A program made the position numbers and the translations under genes. The notes beneath the pieces are model-generated. The model was not told the DNA's origin and searched no databases. It saw only the letters and a program-made list of their open reading frames with translations. A stretch of 11,835 nucleotides of DNA, from the NCBI GenBank assembly GCA_026770615.1, contig MU631347.1:277331-289165 (forward strand). Direction: 5' to 3'. Of the stretch, positions 229-10,409 are shown in pieces (position 1 is the first letter of the stretch; each line of letters starts with the position of its first letter). This stretch comes from Pavlovales sp. CCMP2436. Taxonomy: Eukaryota > Haptophyta > Pavlovophyceae > Pavlovales.

Positions 229-344
229 GTAATCTATATACGACGCGTATAAGTTTAAAGTAGCCATGTGGGCCGCCCAGACAGCTGAGCGGGCAGCAAG
301 GAAACTGAATCAAAACACAGTACCAGCGGCCACACCACCTATAC

Positions 345-410
345 TAATGTAGGGGGGTTCGGGCTGGCGGTACGTTTCAAGTTCAAGTCAGGCTGATCTT
401 AGCGTCCATT
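345..410 (+). mobile_element. 66-bp insertion flanked by a 10-bp direct repeat
   Basis: Compared with the right copy of the host element, an extra block sits here. It is bounded by two identical CCACCTATAC sequences at 335-344 and 411-420, as expected for a target-site duplication. The inserted DNA (GGGCTGGCGG then GCTGATCTTAGCG) resembles 9327-9385 in JMJD7 intron 3 (TAGCTGGCGGTGTGAC then GCTGATCTTAACG). It is therefore likely a short dispersed mobile sequence. It breaks the element's reading frame with a TAG. Confidence 0.7.
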
Positions 411-420
411 CCACCTATAC

Positions 421-660
421 AATACGAGCCCATACCCCCAACGGACAGCATCGCTCAAAACAAGGAACCATCAGCCTTACCTCCTATGCAGTATGAGCCC
501 ATACCCCTAACGAACAGCATCGCCCAAAACGAGGCACCAGCGGCTATACCATTTTTGCAGTATGAGCCCATACCCCCAACGGACAACATCGCTCAGTATG
601 AGCCCATATCCCCAACGGCCATACCACCTATACAGCAAGAGCCCATACCCCCAACGGACA
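421..660 (+). repeat. Protein-coding tandem repeat (QYEPIPPTD units), left copy
   Basis: Successive units start near 421, 490, 559, 595 and 634. That gives two 69-bp periods (23 codons) followed by shortened units of 36 and 39 bp (12 and 13 codons). Each encodes a variant of QYEPIPPTDSIAQN followed by an Ala/Pro linker. All spacings are multiples of three, so the array was shaped under reading-frame constraint. Confidence 0.85.
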
Positions 661-1334
661 CCCGTGCACTGACCACCCCTGCAAACGAAGATGCCTGCTG
701 CGCAACCAACCTACGAATAATGAAGAATCATTAACAGGTGTAGTAAACCCGACCATACCCTCCATGCAGCCGAAGCCCACCCTCAGGCCCAGCCGAGGCC
801 AGCAACGCTTACGCACATCGCAACCAGAGACCGTCTCGAACTAAAACCTCATTACTACCAGGAGCAGCCAGTCCCACCGAACCTAAAACAGGACCAGCCA
901 GTCCCACCATAAACCACGAATCCGCAGCAGGCCCGTCACGCATGCACGCACTGATCCATGATAAGTCCTTCATATTCATGCACCACTCACGCACACTGCG
1001 CTCAGCAACCAAACGGGCCCTTGAAACCGGCCAGTCACCCACGCTGTTACACCACTCGGGCGACAAAAAACCTAAAACCAAACATGAGCCAGCAAGCGCA
1101 AAGTCTTCAAAACGCAAACATGAGCCAGCAAGCCCGCCACACCTCACAACCCAAAGTCCTGCGCCCGAGGCCCATCCCTTGACCGTCAAGTTGTGGGATA
1201 GAGTGGACCAGCAAATAAGCCGCGCGCATATTTGTGGTTTTTGCCCCCGGCCAAAAATCTCAACATATGCGAACCAGGCTAGCGAGGAAGTAATGTTTGG
1301 GATGCGTGAAGGTGGGTCGCGCTCGCAGACGGTG

Positions 1335-1541
1335 CTGCATTTTCAGACGACGCGAGGGAGAGCAGTGGAGGTCGGTCAGTGCGCCAGTCGAGAGTCGTCA
1401 GTCGTCATCGTCGTGTGTCTGAACTGATCAGCGGTGGGGACGGTATCCGTGTGCTCGAGGTGGATCCCTGGATCTGAGTGTTTTTCAACACTTGATTTCA
1501 GTGAGATCCTCCCGGGGACGGACGATTAACTAGAAAGTTAC
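1335..1541 (-). mobile_element. Introner-like segment, inverted copy
   Basis: Read on the minus strand, this 207-bp segment starts GTAACTTTCTAGTT and ends AAAATGCAG. It matches JMJD7 intron 1 and the copy at 4347-4554 along its length, including the core CCGTCCCC...GCTGATCAG and the tail CGTCGTCTGAAAATG. The donor-like start has G>C at its fifth base (GTAACT instead of GTAAGT). It forms the 3' end of the left proline-repeat element. Confidence 0.85.
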
Positions 1542-2707: not shown

Positions 2708-3279
2708 GGACCTCGGTCGGCTGCACCTAAGCTATGTAACTATAAATTATTTATTCGTTATCCCAGTTTGGACTTCGGTCAAATTTCAACTTCGGCATAT
2801 AACTAGACGTCGACCAAGTAAAGGGTGTCACGGGCAATAACGGTCCCACTTCTGAGCTCAATCCTATTAGATGCCATGACAAAGGACGCGGCCGCATGGT
2901 CGCCGTGTGTTCATATTTCCTTCTCCTGAGCCGAGCCTTGGAATGTAGGGTCTCAAGAGGCAAATAAAAAGCCGCGACAATTAGTTGAGCAAGCAATAAC
3001 TAATTTAACATACTTAATAAAATGCCGAATTTAAATAAATGCTGAAATCCTAAATAGGATGTTTCTCAGGAATGGCCAATAGGACGGTGACAAAGTGCCC
3101 CGAGGGGCTGCCCCAGGGGTGAGCCGGAGACATCAGAAGTTACCTATGATTCCCCACACTCCACGCCGAGGCCCCCACGCGCTTAGCGGAGGCGGTGGGC
3201 TACCTCTGGCGTGGCCATCAGCCGTCGACAGTGGTAGTGCACAGCCATCTAGTTCATATTGGCACTGGTCCCGCGCCCC
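2708..3279. other. No gene seen; AT-rich in part
   Basis: No supported gene. About 2985-3060 is markedly AT-rich (AATTTAAATAAATG and similar). GGGTGTCACGGGCAATAA at about 2823-2840 resembles the terminal motif of the small repeat at 7659-7813, and may be a solitary end. Confidence 0.35.
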
Positions 3280-4346: not shown

Positions 4347-4554
4347 GTAAGTTTCTAGTTAAACGTCCGTCCCCGAGAGGATCTCACTGGAAACAAGTGT
4401 TGAAAAACACTCAGATCCAGAGATCCACCCCGAGCACACGGATACCGTCCCCACCGCTGATCAGTTCAGGCACACGACGATCGACGACTGACGACTCTCG
4501 ACTGGCGCACTGACCGACCTCCACTGCTCTCCCTCGCGTCGTCTGAAAATGTAG
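4347..4554 (+). mobile_element. Introner-like segment, plus-strand copy with intact GT...AG ends
   Basis: This 208-bp segment begins GTAAGTTTCTAGTT and ends AAAATGTAG. It matches JMJD7 intron 1 (6674-6889) over nearly its full length in the same orientation. It keeps a consensus donor and an AG at the far end, so it could be spliced if transcribed on the plus strand. It is the 3' terminal part of the larger minus-strand element at 4347-6235. Confidence 0.85.
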
Positions 4555-5289
4555 CACCGTCTGCGAGCGCGGCACACCTACGCGACTTACAAAACATTAC
4601 TTCTTCACTAGCCTGTATCACATATATTGCGCTTATTTTCCCGTGGGGCAGAAATCGCAAACATACGCGGCTTGTCTGCTGGCTCAGTCTATCCCAACCT
4701 TTGCCGGGGGTGGGCCTCGGGCGCAGGGCTTTGGGATGCGGGAAATCGCGGGCTTGCTGGCTCATGATTGTGTTTTGGTAACTTTGAGTTTGCTGGCTAA
4801 TATTTGGTTTTGGGTTTCTTGCCGCCTGAGTGGTGTGTCAGCGTGGTTGACTGGATGGTCTCAAAGGCCCGTTTGGTAGATGAGCGCATTGTGCGTGGGT
4901 GATTTTCGTGCATGGATATGACGGGCTTGTCCGAGATTAATGCGTGCTTGTTTGACGGGCCTGCTGCAGATTCGTGGTGTATGGTGGGACTAGATGGTCC
5001 TATTTTGTGTTCCCGATGTATGGTGGTACTGGCTGCTCCTGGTAGTGCTTAGGGTGTAGCTCAAGACGGTCTCTTCTGGATGCGCTTTGGGAGTATGACT
5101 CGAAGCGATCTCTTCTGAATTTGTTTTTCACGATTGGTATGCGTAAGCGTGGCTGTCCTCGGCTGGGCCTGAGGGTGGGCTCAGTCTGCGTGAAGGGTAT
5201 GCTCGGGTCTGCACCTGGAGTTGAGTCTGCTTTATTCGAAGGTTGATTGCGGGTCAAGCGTATTCGTTTGGCAGGAGTTGCCTGTGTGC

Positions 5290-5645
5290 TGGTGTCCTTT
5301 GGAGGTATGGGCTCATGCTGCATAGGTGGTATGGCCGCTGGTAACTCGTTTTGAGCGATGCTGTCCGTTGGGGGTATGGGTTCGTAATGAATGGGTGGTG
5401 AGGATGATGGTACCTTATTGTTTTGGGCGATGCTGTCCGTTAGGGGTATGGGCTCATACTGCTAGGTGGTATGGCCGCTGGTGCTTCGTTTTGGGCGATG
5501 CTGTCTGTTGGGGGTATGGGCTCATACTGCATAGGAGGTAAGGCTGATGGTTCCTTGTTTTGAGCGATGCTGTCCGTCGGGGGTATGGGCTCGTATTGTA
5601 TAAGTGATATGGCCGCCGGTGCTGTGTTTTGATTCAGTTTCCTTG
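5290..5645 (-). repeat. Protein-coding tandem repeat (QYEPIPPTD units), right copy
   Basis: On the minus strand, at least five units encode variants of QYEPIPPTDSIAQN with Ala/Pro linkers, mostly 69 bp apart. They are the inverted homologues of 421-660. At the low-coordinate end the units carry more substitutions and indels (for example QHEPIPPKD). Confidence 0.85.
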
Positions 5646-6232
5646 CTGCCTGCTCAGCTGTCTGGGCGGCCCACATGGCTACCTTAAACTTGTACGCGTC
5701 GTATATAGATATATTGTCCTTGGTTGACGCCGCTGATGCTTCGATTGCCGCTTCGCGTGATTTGTGCATGCGGAGGCTGTGGCGTAGGAGAGTGTAGTGT
5801 AAGTTGCCGGGCTTGGGTGCGTCACCGGTGTCGACGTCCTTCTTTCTGAGCTCTTCTTTGACACTTAATACTACCCTTCCGGTGAAGTAGTCCGGCCGAG
5901 ATATCATGTGTGTCGCCATTGATTTTGATTTGGCGGGTCCCAGGCGCGGGGACAGTTCCTTGCATGGAGAGCGGTGGAGGTCGTGGCGGTGCTTTTTCGT
6001 TGACGAGCACTCGTGGTATAAGTAATGCTTTGTGTCTTGTGAGTTGAGTGCTTTGCATAGAGGGCAGGTGAGGCCCATTGTTTCGGACTTTCCGTCAATG
6101 GTAATTGTAGTGGTGGCCATCGCCGGAAATTCTGCTGCCCACTCGGCATTGTGGCGGTATGATCCGAGTACCAATCTGGCCATGTGTTTAGTGTACTTTT
6201 CCGTGGGTCGCTGTGTGCCTCGATTAACTCTT
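5440..6232 (-). pseudogene. Element-encoded protein fragment: zinc cluster plus proline-rich repeats
   Basis: The frame is open from 6232 (just after a TAA) to about 5440. The first ATG at 6183 is probably internal, because the sequence before it (RGTQRPTEKYTKH) also reads as coding. Counted from that Met, C40-P-L-C43, H53, H57 and C59 form a C-x2-C-x9-H-x5-C pattern. This is like the zinc-binding C-terminus of many non-LTR reverse transcriptases. From about residue 160 comes a helix-like YKFKVAMWAAQTAEQAARKL, then QYEPIPPTD repeats with a 23-residue period. A one-base deletion near 5460 (CTGC-TAGG against CTGCATAGG in sister units) shifts the frame. The coding signal resumes at about 5323 as another repeat unit and a basic tail down to about 5000. 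Confidence 0.6.
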
Positions 6233-6264
6233 TTTTAGAAAGAAAAAACTTGGAAACTTCCAGC

Positions 6265-6673
6265 ATGGCAGGTCCCACTGTCGACGACGGACCGGGAGAC
6301 GACGGGGCCGCGCGAGGCGCGTCGCTGGGCGGCAGGCTAAGCAGCTGCAGCCTCCCCTTTGCGCCCTTCTCCACTCCACCTCTCCCTGTCTCCCGCCTCG
6401 CTCAACTGGAGGAGGCTGTCGAGTGGCTCGCCACCGAGTGCCGCGAGCTGTGGCTGCCGCGGCGCGTGCTGCGCCTCGACGGGCCGCCCTCGCCGCTGCC
6501 CTTCCTGCGCGAGCACGTGCACCTCTCGCTCCCATGTGTCATTGCCAGCGCGATGGACGGCGGCGAATGGGCGCGCGCCAGACGGTGGTCGCTCGACGTG
6601 ATGGCGGCGGCGATGGGCGCGCAGCTGATCACGGTCAACGTAACTCCCGACGGGCGCGGGGACGCCGTGGTGT
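6265..6673 (+). CDS. JMJD7: JMJD7-like exon 1
   Basis: Encodes residues 1-136 plus the first base of codon 137. It holds a Gly/Asp/Ser-rich leader and then the conserved N-terminal part (WLATECRELWLP, PPSPLPFLREHV, VTPDGRGDAV). It ends at GTGGTGT before GTAAGT. I chose this donor over nearby GTs because it alone gives TGC GGG AGG TTC across the junction, matching the spacing DAVxxxRF of the family. Confidence 0.85.
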
Positions 6674-9600
6674 GTAAGTTTCTAGTTGAACGTCCATCCC
6701 CTGGAGGCTTACACTGGATCAAAGCGTTAGAAAACACTCAGATCACACTCAGATCCAGGAATCCACCCCGGGCACACGGATACCGTCCCAGCCGCTGATC
6801 AGATTAGACACACGACTATCGACGACTCTCGACTGGCGCGCTGACCGACCTCCACTGCATCTCCCCCGCGTCGTCTGAAAATGTGTCAGGCGGGAGGTTC
6901 GTCAAGCCCGAGGAGCGGCGCATGACCTTTGCGCAGTTTGCCGCCGCGCTGCGCGAGCGCGAGGGCGGCTTGCAAGGCAGTCGGGGGACGTTAAAAGAAC
7001 TATTATTAAAAAAAGGTGTGCACTACCTTTCGTTGCAAGACGACAACCTGCGCACCGAGCATCCGCAGCTCGCGTCAGACGTGCCGTCCTCCGTGACCTG
7101 GTTCGAAGAGGCGCTAGGCTGCGCTCCCGACGCGGTCAATCTCTGGGTCGGGGACGAGCGAGCCATGAGCGCGGTCCACGCCGACCATTATGAGGTTTTT
7201 TTTTTTTTTTTTTTCTACCGGCGTGACGGCCTTGTGAAGGCAGAAATACTTGCATTGTAGCAAAAGGAAAGGATTACTGAATGTGACGTATTTCCCCGGC
7301 AGACGGTCTCCCGAACGCGAATCCAGGACTACTCCCCGAGCACACAGATACTGCCCCCCCTGAGCATGGTTACTCAGAGAGCCTGCGGGGCCAAACTGAC
7401 TTAACGAAAGGGTGCCCACTCAAAGGGGCCAAAGGAGCAGTTGTTACTCGCTCAATACACTACGCCAGTCATCACACCACGGCTTATTGTCATCACACCA
7501 TCACACATCAGGATCTAATTTCGTGATGTTGTAACATCTTGTGCATCATGTTATATGTTATGTTATGTTATCGGTGAACAACTACAGTACTTGCGGCTCG
7601 ATTCCTGATTTGAACAGAAAGGACACCAAAATCGCCTTCACATTGCCCAATATAGGGGGTCGCGGGCAATGAGAAATCGCCACGTTAAGAAACCGAGCCT
7701 CGTTTTGAGTGACCTTCAATAGTAATTCAAGCAAAATTTTACCTTCGTAACGTATGTAATTTGCTAAGAAACTGAGCTTCAGCCCAAAATGCGCCCTTCT
7801 TATTGCCCGCAACACCTAAGTGGGCACCCTTTGGCCCCGCAGGCTCTCTGAGTAACCAGGCGTAGGGGGGGGCGGTATCTGTGTGCTCGGGCAGTGGTCC
7901 TGGATTCACGTCCGGGAGACCGTCTTCGGGGACAGACGTCCTAATAAGAAGTCCTTCTCCTTAAACCTGTACACAAGGCAAACGTCCTAATAAGAAGTCC
8001 TTCTCCTTAAACCTATACACAAGGGGACAGACGTCCTAATAAGAAGTCCTTCTCCTTAAACCTGTACACAAGGCAAACGTCCTAATAAGAAGTCCTTCTC
8101 CTTAAACCTGTACACTAGGCAAAATTCGTCCTCGCAGAATCAGAATCTAAGGTTGTGAAGTTGTGAGAGCTTGTGTATCATGATCGATGAACAACTAGTC
8201 AATTTGCCTTTAAGTGCGGCTCGACACCTGATTCTAACGGGAATGACATTGGCCTTCAAATCGCGCGATGCACTACGCAGAACCAGAATTTGCCCTTCTT
8301 ATTGCCTGCGACACTCGGTTAGACTCACTCTGCCGCCTGAGACTTGACCAGGGACAGGCGATTGCCGCCCTCGTTGTCAGAACGAGACGGCTGAGTGAGC
8401 TGCGCATGAGCGCACGTCATTCTAATTTTATACCTACTCTCAGCAGAACCTCTACTGCGTAAAAATCAGATCCGGATCAACGGCTCAAAAGCCTCGCGAA
8501 GCCGAGGCTAAACGCATCCATGCTAACGCACCGAATGTGTGTACACTCCGCAGAACCTCTACTGCGTCATCTCGGGTGAGAAGGTGTTCACCCTTCTTCC
8601 TCCCGCCGACGCGATCTCGCGCGACCTCGCGCCGAGGCCGGTGGGCAGGTTCGCGCAGCGCACGGACGGCGCGTGGGAGGTGTGCGACGAGGAGGCGCCG
8701 TCCGGTGGCGTTGTGGGCGCGGATGGGGATACGGCCGGGCTGGGCGGCGGGCTGGGTGGCGGCGACGGAGGCGGGCTTGCCGGTGGGCTTGGCGGAGGCG
8801 ACGGGGGTGAGCTCGGCGGCAGCTTTGTGGAGTGGATCGGGATCGACCCGGCGGAGCCCGAGCAGCTTCCCGCGCTTTCTGGCGCAGTCACCGTGCGTGT
8901 GGGCGCGGGGGAGATGCTCTACCTCCCAGCCAACTGGTGCGCGCCGGCAGCTAGTTAGTTAGTTAGTATGACCCTCCATAGCACCCGCAGACGCCCTATG
9001 TGTTGAGGGAGGTGGCTTTCATGATATCTGCAGTGGTCGGTAGCCTATGTGACGACCCCTGTCACGTACCGTGCTAATTTATTGCGGAAGATGCTCAACC
9101 TCCCGGCGAACTGGTGCGCGTTATTTATTTATTATGTGATGATAAAAGAAGTTAATATCATTATTTATGCTATGATTTTTCTTCTACCGCCGGGTGCGCA
9201 ATCTCTGCGTCCAGGAGGCCCCGGGTGTCAGCGTCTGGCTATTATTAATGAAGGGGTGTTTTAGCTGGCGGTGTGACAAATTCTCTGCGTCCAGGAGGCC
9301 CCGGGTGTCAGCGTCTGGCTATTATTAATGAAGGGGTGTTCTAGCTGGCGGTGTGACGAATCATCAAGCTGATCTTAACGCTCTGATGCAGGCTCCGACG
9401 CGCTAGCTGATGCTATATTATTGATAGGGATTCAAGCTGGCGTCTGACTGTCCTGGAAGTTGTGCTGGTCTGAGCTCTGCGTTGCCCATTGCCTGCTGCC
9501 TTATATCATATCATATGCTGACCAAATCAGTGAGTGAACACCACCTGTTGAACCATGCTGAGCCGCTAATAATAATCATCATCACAATAACAACAATAAC

Positions 9601-10409
9601 AATAACAACAACAATACTAATAATAATGTACCCAGGTTCCACCGAGTGACGCAGAGCGCGCAGACGGTTGCAGTGAACTACTGGCACGACCCCTTGCAGT
9701 CCGCGGTGCCGCCAGGACAGATACTCGCGCAGTTCGCGCGAAAGGTGCACCGCGCGCTGCACGGGCACGGCTCCCGGGACCGGCAGGCGGATGCTGGAAC
9801 GGCGGATAGTAAGTTAATTAGTTAGACCCTTCAACACACCCGCAAACATCTGAGGGAGGTGGCTTTCATAATATCTGGCGGATTCGCTTGCAATTATTTC
9901 CTTGCAAATTAGGGACATCTTTATGAACCGACGACAACATCTGAGAGTACTCGAGAAGAATAAATTATATGATATTGCTAGACAAGACGGACCCAGCAAT
10001 TGGCAGGCGGGCCCGGAGTAGCCTCGCGAAAAGTGATATATAAAACATTCAGAACACTCAGACGCCAGCTTGAATCCCTATCATAAATATAAAACCAAAT
10101 AGTACTATATTAGTTATAATTGCGTGGGCCCTGGTTGGCTTGACCCCTAAGACGGATCAGCAAGTCTGCCTATTCAACGCGTGACGAGGGGGTTGGCAAC
10201 GTTCTTGCAGGCGCGGGCCAGTAGTACGGTACTACTAGAGCTTCGAAATAATATAAGAAGTATAGTTAAACTAAACATCATTATACAACACAATTAACTA
10301 ATTTTAATGCATGGCTGATTCAGATGGAACGACCCCTGCAACGCGGCCTGGAAAACCGGTTGCCAGCAGTGAGCAGGCGGCGTTGGTCAGCTCGCTTCGC
10401 GCGGCTTAA
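6265..10409 (+). CDS. JMJD7: JmjC-domain lysyl hydroxylase, JMJD7 family (5 exons)
   Basis: Joining 6265-6673, 6890-7194, 8554-8936, 9636-9808 and 10324-10409 gives a continuous 451-residue frame, with every junction in phase. The family uses Fe(II), 2-oxoglutarate and O2; human JMJD7 hydroxylates a lysine in the DRG1/DRG2 GTPases. Visible hallmarks: TPPDG-type segment VTPDGRGDAV (about 126-135), PDAVNLWVG before the iron site, iron ligands H233 and D235 in HADHYE, NLYCVISGEK with K248 at the 2-oxoglutarate lysine position (human K193), GEMLYLPANWFH with H368 as the third ligand, and VAVNYWHD. Human JMJD7 is 316 residues. The excess here is an N-terminal extension (about 1-45), an insertion near 170-178, a Gly-rich loop (about 288-328) and a C-terminal tail. 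The start at 6265 has a good context (CAGCATGG); the upstream in-frame ATG at 6184 lies in the transposon. The family call is firm; the fifth exon is less certain. Confidence 0.9.
6674..6889 (+). mobile_element. JMJD7-like intron 1 = introner copy
   Basis: The 216-bp intron starts GTAAGTTTCTAGTT and ends GTGTCAG. Apart from the last few bases it is a copy of the repeat at 4347-4554 (same orientation) and 1335-1541 (inverted). Homology begins at or within a few bases of the donor and ends at GAAAATG, 6 bases before the exon. It has an internal duplication, CACTCAGATC repeated. No terminal inverted repeats are seen. An intron that coincides end to end with a repeat unit defines an introner. Confidence 0.85.
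6890..7194 (+). CDS. JMJD7: JMJD7-like exon 2
   Basis: Encodes the end of codon 137 and residues 138-238, finishing exactly at HADHYE with the two iron ligands H233 and D235. The junction lies between HYE and NLYC. An AT-rich insertion at about 6989-7014 encodes TLKELLLKK in an otherwise GC-rich exon, at a point where human JMJD7 is shorter by about 11 residues. Confidence 0.85.
7285..7939. mobile_element. Intronic element with ~120-bp inverted ends
   Basis: The arm 7285-7420 and the arm 7819-7939 are inverted copies of each other. Shared blocks include GACGGTCTCCCG, ATCCAGGAC, CGAGCACACAGATAC, GGTTACTCAGAGAGCCTGCG and GGGTGCCCACT. The left arm has about 12 extra bases (CTGACTTAACGA). The outer half of each arm also resembles the introner core (CCCCGAGCACAC.GATAC.G.CCCC). 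The unit may be a TIR element, or two introner-related copies in opposite orientation. Confidence 0.75.
7659..7813 (+). mobile_element. Small dispersed repeat B (MITE-like), copy 2, nested in intron 2
   Basis: A 155-bp unit bounded by GTCGCGGGCAAT (7659-7670) and its near-perfect inverse ATTGCCCGCAAC (7802-7813). It has the same internal sequence as 3987-4137. The short inverted termini and small size fit a miniature non-autonomous DNA element. It sits between the long inverted arms at 7285-7420 and 7819-7939. Confidence 0.65.
7937..8123 (+). repeat. Four-unit tandem array, alternating 46 and 49 bp
   Basis: Units start at 7937, 7983, 8032 and 8078, each beginning CGTCCTAATAAGAAGTCC and continuing to TTAAACCT(G/A)TACAC. 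Spacings are 46, 49 and 46 bp. The alternation means a 95-bp dimer was itself duplicated. The longer unit ends AGGGGACAGA where the shorter ones end AGGCAAA. The array starts at the outer edge of the right inverted arm. Confidence 0.9.
8444..8460 (+). repeat. Duplicated intron 2 acceptor/exon 3 start
   Basis: CAGAACCTCTACTGCGT occurs here and again at 8551-8567, where it forms the true acceptor and the start of exon 3. The sequence between them begins GTAAAAATC (8459) and ends CTCCGCAG (8553). The intervening DNA therefore looks like a 95-bp insertion with intron-type ends and a 17-bp duplication of the junction. A 7-bp hairpin (AGCCTCG / CGAGGCT, 8490-8496 and 8503-8509) lies inside. Confidence 0.8.
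8554..8936 (+). CDS. JMJD7: JMJD7-like exon 3
   Basis: Encodes residues 239-365 and two bases of codon 366. It starts with NLYCVISGEK (K248 is the expected 2-oxoglutarate contact) and ends with GEMLYLPAN plus TG. A Gly-rich loop at about residues 288-328 (8735-8825), built of GGGLGGGD-like repeats, interrupts the domain between WEVCDEEAP and FVEWIGIDP; other family members have a short link there. The donor GTGCGC at 8937 restores W-F-H with exon 4. Confidence 0.85.
9085..9120 (+). repeat. Duplicated exon 3 end with donor
   Basis: This stretch repeats the end of exon 3 (8903-8941), including AGATGCTC, ACCTCCC, and AACTGGTGCGCG with the donor GT. Several substitutions would turn MLYLPANW into MLNLPANW. 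It lies 148 bp into the intron as measured from the donor at 8937. Confidence 0.85.
9202..9360 (+). repeat. 80-bp tandem duplication
   Basis: Two copies, 9202-9281 and 9282-9360, start TCTCTGCGTCCAGGAGG and end GCTGGCGGTGTGAC. They differ at one clear position in the body (T at 9261, C at 9341) and at the junction. The second copy runs on into GCTGATCTTAACG, and that extended end resembles the 66-bp insertion at 345-410. Confidence 0.9.
9422..9500 (-). repeat. Dispersed repeat A, inverted copy
   Basis: Reverse complement of 151-228, with few differences over 78 bp. It includes the shared end TGATAGGGATTCAAGC. Confidence 0.85.
9566..9628 (+). repeat. A/T/C trinucleotide microsatellite
   Basis: An imperfect array of AAT, CAT and AAC triplets, directly upstream of the intron 3 acceptor. 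Confidence 0.85.
9636..9808 (+). CDS. JMJD7: JMJD7-like exon 4
   Basis: Encodes codon 366 (last base), residues 367-423 and the first base of codon 424. It begins FHRVTQSAQTVAVNYWHD, which carries H368, the third iron ligand, and the conserved closing strand of the JmjC barrel. A basic Arg/His-rich helix region follows. The exon ends at a consensus GTAAGT. If that donor is not used, the protein would end six codons later at TAG 9825-9827. Confidence 0.85.
9809..10323 (+). other. JMJD7-like intron 4 (515 bp)
   Basis: The donor is GTAAGT and the acceptor is TGATTCAG. The first ~70 bases (TTAGTTAGACCC... GAGGGAGGTGGCTTTCATAATATCTG) match the beginning of intron 3 (8949-9033). Dispersed repeat A recurs at 10046-10083. 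The rest is AT-rich without recognisable content. Confidence 0.6.
10046..10083 (+). repeat. Dispersed repeat A, short copy
   Basis: Matches 191-228 (CATTCAGAAC...CCCTATCA) with one or two differences. Only the last 38 bp of the unit are present. Confidence 0.85.
10324..10409 (+). CDS. JMJD7: JMJD7-like exon 5 (C-terminus)
   Basis: After the acceptor at 10322-10323 the frame set by exon 4 reads NGTTPATRPGKPVASSEQAA and then LVSSLRAA to a TAA at 10407-10409. The composition and GC-rich third positions fit the upstream exons, and the phase is correct. There is no family homology to lean on in this tail. Confidence 0.55.

Follow-up and report, generated by a model that had tools for sequence, protein, structure and literature searches.

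It is still debated where new spliceosomal introns come from. The JMJD7-like gene in the window (the whole stretch of 11,835 nucleotides analysed here, from Pavlovales sp. CCMP2436) raises this question. A preliminary description had noted that a 216-bp GT..AG interval in this gene, 6674-6889, matches 4347-4554 on the plus strand and 1335-1541 in inverted orientation, and sequence comparison bore this out. It had gone on to regard the intron as a copy of a dispersed repeat and as an introner, with repeat ends that coincide with the intron ends. How did the gene come by an intron made of a repeat? The reading that we consider best is a single intron gain by an ordinary antisense retrotransposon and not the work of a new introner family.

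The gene has a predicted protein of 428 residues, its frame being open for 428 codons across four exons (Table 1). The structure of JMJD7 (PDB 4QU2) aligned with residues 47-286 and 330-384 at an E-value of 2.6e-58, without a gap across the first splice junction. With a sequence relationship that spans most of the protein, and with a match to PF13621, the product belongs with JMJD7 in the JmjC lysyl hydroxylase family. There were 389 homologues at E ≤ 0.001 (7993 scored), and the closest named one was from Diacronema lutheri (Pavlovales, Haptophyta). The gene is single copy, its exons having been found once in a genome search; two further places in the genome matched residues 288-373 only, at 1e-4.

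Table 1. Positions in the window of the JMJD7-like gene, the LINE copies and the elements of intron 1
Feature	Position	Strand	Basis
JMJD7-like exon 1	6265..6673	+	spliced frame, homology; final GT matches terminal GT of LINE
JMJD7-like intron 1	6674..6889	+	216 bp, GT..AG; two in-frame stops if kept; P0001 crosses junction exactly
JMJD7-like exon 2	6890..7194	+	spliced frame, P0001 comparison, PF13621 6.5e-16
JMJD7-like intron 2	7195..8553	+	1359 bp, rich in repeats; spliced frame, P0001 comparison
JMJD7-like exon 3	8554..8936	+	spliced frame, P0001 comparison, genome search
JMJD7-like intron 3	8937..9635	+	699 bp; spliced frame, P0001 comparison
JMJD7-like exon 4, through stop codon	9636..9825	+	spliced frame, P0001 comparison
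5'-truncated LINE copy, antisense to JMJD7, LINE 3' end at 6674	6674..6883	-	family alignment
Splice donor GTAAGT, from reversed LINE 3' terminus	6674..6679	+	sequence
CTGAC, branch-point-like	6841..6845	+	its A 45 nt before AG end; CTGAC in 38/49 family copies
LINE-derived pyrimidine-rich tract	6846..6876	+	70-73% C/T in stretches measured
TGTCAG, beyond LINE copy; likely recruited acceptor	6884..6889	+	GTGGTGT + CAGGCGGG keeps frame DAVVSGGRFVKPEER
Longer LINE copy, 3' end at 4347	4347..6230, far end approximate	-	inverted arms 4347-5710, further matches
Further LINE copy, 3' end at 1541	232..1541, far end approximate	+	inverted arms; opposite orientation to 4347 copy

Removal of intron 1 preserves the reading frame, and its retention brings two in-frame stops. 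Database protein P0001 (JGI source) crosses all three introns and agrees with the spliced product without a difference over the 312 residues that start at residue 117 and run to the stop. Since this match is exact over all of them, splicing of intron 1 is very likely. The contig of P0001 comprises 1,305 bases as against 3,213 bases for the genomic span 6613-9825, which argues that it holds the spliced form, although a contig known as a protein and a length alone may represent a computed gene model instead of a cDNA.

The nature of the repeat became apparent from its other copies. The 14-mer at the donor end, GTAAGTTTCTAGTT, occurs 338 times (177 + 161) in the 119-Mb genome (703 contigs), and the reversed pattern, taken as a control, does not occur at all. 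With this 14-mer, two degenerate positions being allowed, 79 distinct copies were gathered; some 259 of the 338 exact copies lie outside this sample. The alignment across copies covers the LINE 3' end. All 79 share the end GTAAGTTTCT[A/T][G/T]TT, and the other end is variable, at distances from 14 bp to more than 1500 bp: 17 copies are shorter than 150 bp, 13 measure 150-300 bp, 28 measure 300-750 bp and 21 are longer, counts in which 11 of the 79 copies are cut off by the ends of the fetched sequence. Seven end between 190 and 240 bp. A common end together with a graded opposite end corresponds, in mirrored form, to the structure of a non-LTR retrotransposon, which has a fixed 3' end and is truncated from its 5' end.

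Two boundaries have to be considered separately. Of the 64 copies tested (out of 79), 59 have GT before GTAAG, so the end of the element lies 2 nt outside intron 1. At the donor side the repeat end is thus a family-wide boundary close to the intron end, as had been proposed; at the GAAAATG side the proposed coincidence broke down. Homology had been thought to end at GAAAATG, but both other copies in the window continue for about 1.1 kb or more beyond it (232-1541; 4347-5710, to about 6230), GAAAATG is not the end of most copies in the loci that were read, and it is simply the point at which the JMJD7 copy was cut short.

By these and the following sequence comparisons the repeat is identified as the 3' part of a reverse transcriptase (RT)-encoding non-LTR retrotransposon (LINE), lying reversed in JMJD7. 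The part of the longer copy at 5900-6240 had at least 39 further matches in the genome at 94-97% identity among the best 40 of 276 first-look candidates that were scored. RT domains (PF00078) gave at least 151 matches in the genome. At no fewer than 12 of the 40 listed places an RT match, read by eye, lies 1.5-2.5 kb upstream on the same strand (contigs C185, C15, C46, C32, C562, C152, C369, C89, C38, C170, C203 and C2), and the full order of RT, middle part and 3' end on one strand is present on C15, C46, C89 and C203. An RT piece from locus L079 matched PF00078 at 2e-20. When it was combined into a profile with seven database relatives, R2 proteins came first (1.3e-19) and LINE-1 ORF2p was among the next (5e-15). 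The family therefore shows both an encoded RT of the non-LTR type and a common 3' end with variable 5' truncation. Short target-site duplications are expected as well. Shared words of at least 5 nt flank 19 of 64 testable copies (mean 8.4 and maximum 15 in 200 shuffles) and words of at least 6 nt flank seven of the 64 (mean 2.2, maximum 6), an excess of the kind that such duplications would leave; at 4 nt (38 of 64, shuffle maximum 39) and at 8 nt there was no excess over shuffles. The duplications are thus seen across the copy sample and are not clear at JMJD7. In its related RT domain, common 3' end, graded 5'-truncation and short flanking duplications in a subset of copies the family resembles the R2 and LINE-1 retrotransposons.

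Several further observations concern the element itself. In the open reading frame on the minus strand at 5440-6234 a C-x2-C...H...C zinc-like motif, recognised by eye, precedes tandem repeats of 69 bp (23 residues); the frame matched no Pfam family above its cut-off. An RNase H suspected by eye in a second LINE reading frame was rejected, being without Pfam, PDB or NCBIfam support. A MITE or another element with terminal inverted repeats was rejected too, as GTAAGTTTCTAGTT at one end and GAAAATG at the other do not form a pair of inverted repeats, and an Rfam scan of the window gave no match at gathering scores. The shortest copy (L075:251-269) consists of 14 bp of the LINE end followed by ACAG|G. 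The longer copy in the window stops some 35-50 bp upstream of the JMJD7 start codon (6265), so near that it may supply or disturb the promoter.

How did a fragment of this LINE become intron 1? The intron is probably a 210-base, 5'-truncated, antisense LINE copy that inserted into a continuous exon, its donor coming from the LINE and its acceptor from the exon. The copy would have arrived by target-primed reverse transcription. The reverse complement of the LINE end would then contribute the GTAAGT donor, the pyrimidine tract and CTGAC, which from the general splice consensus we take to be branch-point-like, and the spliceosome would use the AG just past the LINE copy (TGTCAG|GCGGG), within the former codons TCA-GGC. 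The protein would thereby shift from DAVV-SGG-RF to DAVV-CG-RF, with one residue lost, and the insertion would have survived because the intron could be spliced out. The reconstructed empty site, GTGGTGT followed by CAGGCGGG, reads in frame as DAVVSGGRFVKPEER, and the spliced form as DAVVCGRFVKPEER. The loop of the empty site has the length found in P0004 and P0016; the loops of relatives read DAVVADGRF (P0004) or are longer and end in GGRF or GGAF (P0002, P0003, P0005). Together, the in-frame empty site and these loops make it likely that the acceptor came from the former exon codons. Exact removal of the intron is also in frame (DAVVCGRF), and a loop of eight residues is the commonest, with 96 of 102 parsed among the 120 listed proteins, P0001 included; the empty site is accordingly a reconstruction and not a proof. 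Blunt insertion with the terminal GT assigned to the element (models C and D) was rejected, being out of frame.

The nearest family member of the JMJD7 copy is 90.9% identical to it, the third lowest value of 49 (family median 96.6%), and a copy among the more diverged ones suggests an older insertion. Against insertion counts the absence of a clear target-site duplication at JMJD7, where the best shared word is GTGT, of 4 nt. The donor-end GTAAGTTT is also retained in 153 of the 214 genome copies whose neighbouring 20-mer is intact; this conservation can equally reflect a 3' end that is needed for reverse transcription.

It might be argued that there was no intron gain at all: the LINE would have entered an intron that already stood at the site, the LINE donor would have taken over and the remainder of the old intron would have been deleted. 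Introns tolerate insertions, and other repeats are present in introns 2 and 3 of this gene. Against this, the LINE accounts for 210 of the 216 bp, which leaves almost nothing of an old intron, and P0002, P0003 and P0004 have one uninterrupted frame across the site. Their clusters include contigs of up to 3.6-8.2 kb, beyond what an mRNA needs; this suggests, without proving it, that the relatives are intronless, the contigs possibly not being genomic and the longest perhaps not being the one with the listed frame. On this evidence we regard an earlier intron at the site as unlikely.

Another route would start from the spliceosome itself. The reversed LINE contains an intron-like unit (GTAAGT ... 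GAAAATGCAG, 213 nt), which might have been reverse-spliced into JMJD7 mRNA and reverse-transcribed, with a 3-nt TGT insertion added later. The argument for it comes from the far boundary. Fifty-eight copies are long enough to reach GAAAATG, nine of which had to be dropped from the count because the sequence there is rearranged or changed. In the 49 with a recognisable motif it is followed by CAG 46 times, by TAG twice and by TGT once, the exception being JMJD7, so that AG stands directly after it in 48 of 49, and the JMJD7 insert ends almost there, within 3 nt of the CAG carried by the family. Moreover, exact removal gives an in-frame exon with the commonest loop length. Under random truncation a stop at most 3 nt from the family AG is a rare coincidence, unless selection for splicing chose it. 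Such selection is expected if the LINE inserted into the exon: an insertion there survives only if it is spliced, for which an AG is needed shortly after the pyrimidine tract, and the coincidence is then explained without reverse splicing. The latter requires the extra TGT insertion; it does not account for the GT that precedes GTAAG at JMJD7 as in most LINE copies, which an excised intron would not carry; and among the 79 copies there is no second one that ends at 213 outside the LINE. Reverse splicing thus seems quite improbable. A related thought, doubtful though not far-fetched, is that a whole intron lies latent in the reversed LINE (GTAAGT, CTGAC, the pyrimidine tract and CAG at about base 213). 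Were this so, any antisense copy truncated near base 213 would be born as an intron, and an ordinary autonomous retrotransposon would be an occasional intron maker, hidden from selection against gene disruption.

For the introner proposal itself to hold, the 210-bp unit would have to spread through genes in the form of introns. Introner families, in a broad survey (PMC9860276), comprise a minimum of four similar introns and lie in genes more often than expected at random. We looked at the genes around other copies. Of 316 open reading frames with at least 50 codons that lay no more than 75 bp from an insertion end, 291, at 77 copies besides JMJD7, were compared with Pfam. At E < 0.001 they yielded one host family (Yos1, on the antisense side) and one retrotransposon domain (Pol_BBD), with four more families at E-values of 0.0045-0.0085; a host family thus lies beside one of 77 copies. 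On both sides of a copy a host family was found in none of the 47, out of 78 besides JMJD7, that had candidate frames on both sides. The JMJD7 flanks, as a positive control, were detected at 4e-4 and 6.5e-16. As a background, control points were set in the same fetched loci; scanning 147 of their 256 frames, from 28 of the 47 points, gave ankyrin (3), histone deacetylase (2), Kelch (1), F-box (1) and Copia-type RT (1). Host families fell at four of the 28 points (L057 near 1000 and near 3050, L047 near 6900, L042 near 2700), as placed by rescanning 50 of the 147 frames, with one of the two deacetylase frames not located. The difference between one of 77 copies and four of 28 points has a Fisher p of 0.017, the four points lying in three loci. 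The Pfam test is blind to genes without Pfam domains, and none in 47 leaves an estimated upper bound of roughly 6% of copies, higher when this blindness is allowed for. Spliced-frame scans of about 55 shorter copies besides JMJD7, judged by eye, revealed no other convincing gene.

In favour of an introner stands one copy that is a gene's intron and brings its own donor, GTAAGT at the shared end. Against this, the JMJD7 copy is the one recognised intron among the 79 sampled, the 47 further copies for which both sides could be tested gave none, copies are not found beside genes more often than control points, and no second boundary is common to them; an introner with both ends fixed was rejected on these graded ends. 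Lack of enrichment at intron boundaries had been named beforehand as ground for giving up the introner, and in our sample the repeat is not enriched there. The dispersed repeat therefore stands and the introner family does not: the repeat is a LINE 3' end with graded 5'-truncation, and a family of introners is very improbable. There is no sign of a LINE specialised for making introns, its sampled copies lying mainly outside recognised genes. As no recognisable gene surrounds the 47 copies testable on both sides, the JMJD7 intron was likely a one-off birth and not a member of a spreading introner family.

The comparison with other introners is nevertheless instructive. Most introners described in that survey (PMC9860276) are consistent with DNA transposons. 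Those of the haptophyte Chrysochromulina sp. likewise represent a transposable element turned intron, with their own 5' splice site, a 3' splice site from the insertion site and no terminal inverted repeats. Unlike them (PMC9860276), the JMJD7 repeat is an RT-encoding LINE with graded 5'-truncation, one known intron and copies that seldom adjoin recognised coding sequence.

Finally, the supposition that 6674-6889 is not an intron and that an insertion broke the gene, for which the two in-frame stops speak, can hardly be entertained given the identity of P0001 with the spliced protein and a frame open across all four exons.

Antisense retroelements with splice signals are known from the exonisation of Alu and L1 elements and from the SINE-derived intron of rice CatA. 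As in those cases, retroelement sequence gives a functional splice site in JMJD7. In contrast to them, almost all of the JMJD7 intron is LINE fragment; the element provides the donor and the tract, and the host probably provides the acceptor. No description of a LINE-derived intron in a haptophyte was found among the papers listed in the literature searches, subscription journals being mostly outside their coverage. In this locus one can read a single instance of a LINE, ordinary and 5'-truncated, that likely became an intron with nothing to mark it as an element dedicated to making introns. A prediction follows from the locus: exons should tolerate copies truncated just past the pyrimidine tract. 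The locus also carries a caution: one intron that matches a repeat is not enough for an introner family.

The other introns of the gene hold repeats of their own. Intron 3 contains a dispersed element of about 88 bp (8948-9036), with similar sequence near 9805-9885 and at least 39 further matches in the genome at 88-93% identity (447 first-look candidates). Across this element, at about 9089-9119, stands an imperfect second copy of the end of exon 3 (about 8912-8942), an arrangement that resembles a long target duplication. A third dispersed element, of about 86 bp (GATAGGGATTCAAGCTGGCGTCTGAC), lies at 9414-9499, with copies at 151-236 and 10044-10091 (reverse); its listed matches are mostly 92-97% identical (622 first-look candidates). 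In intron 2 the acceptor and the start of exon 3 (GCAGAACCTCTACTGCGT, 8550-8567) are present again at 8443-8460, 107 bp upstream, a pattern that a short insertion with duplication of the splice acceptor would leave.
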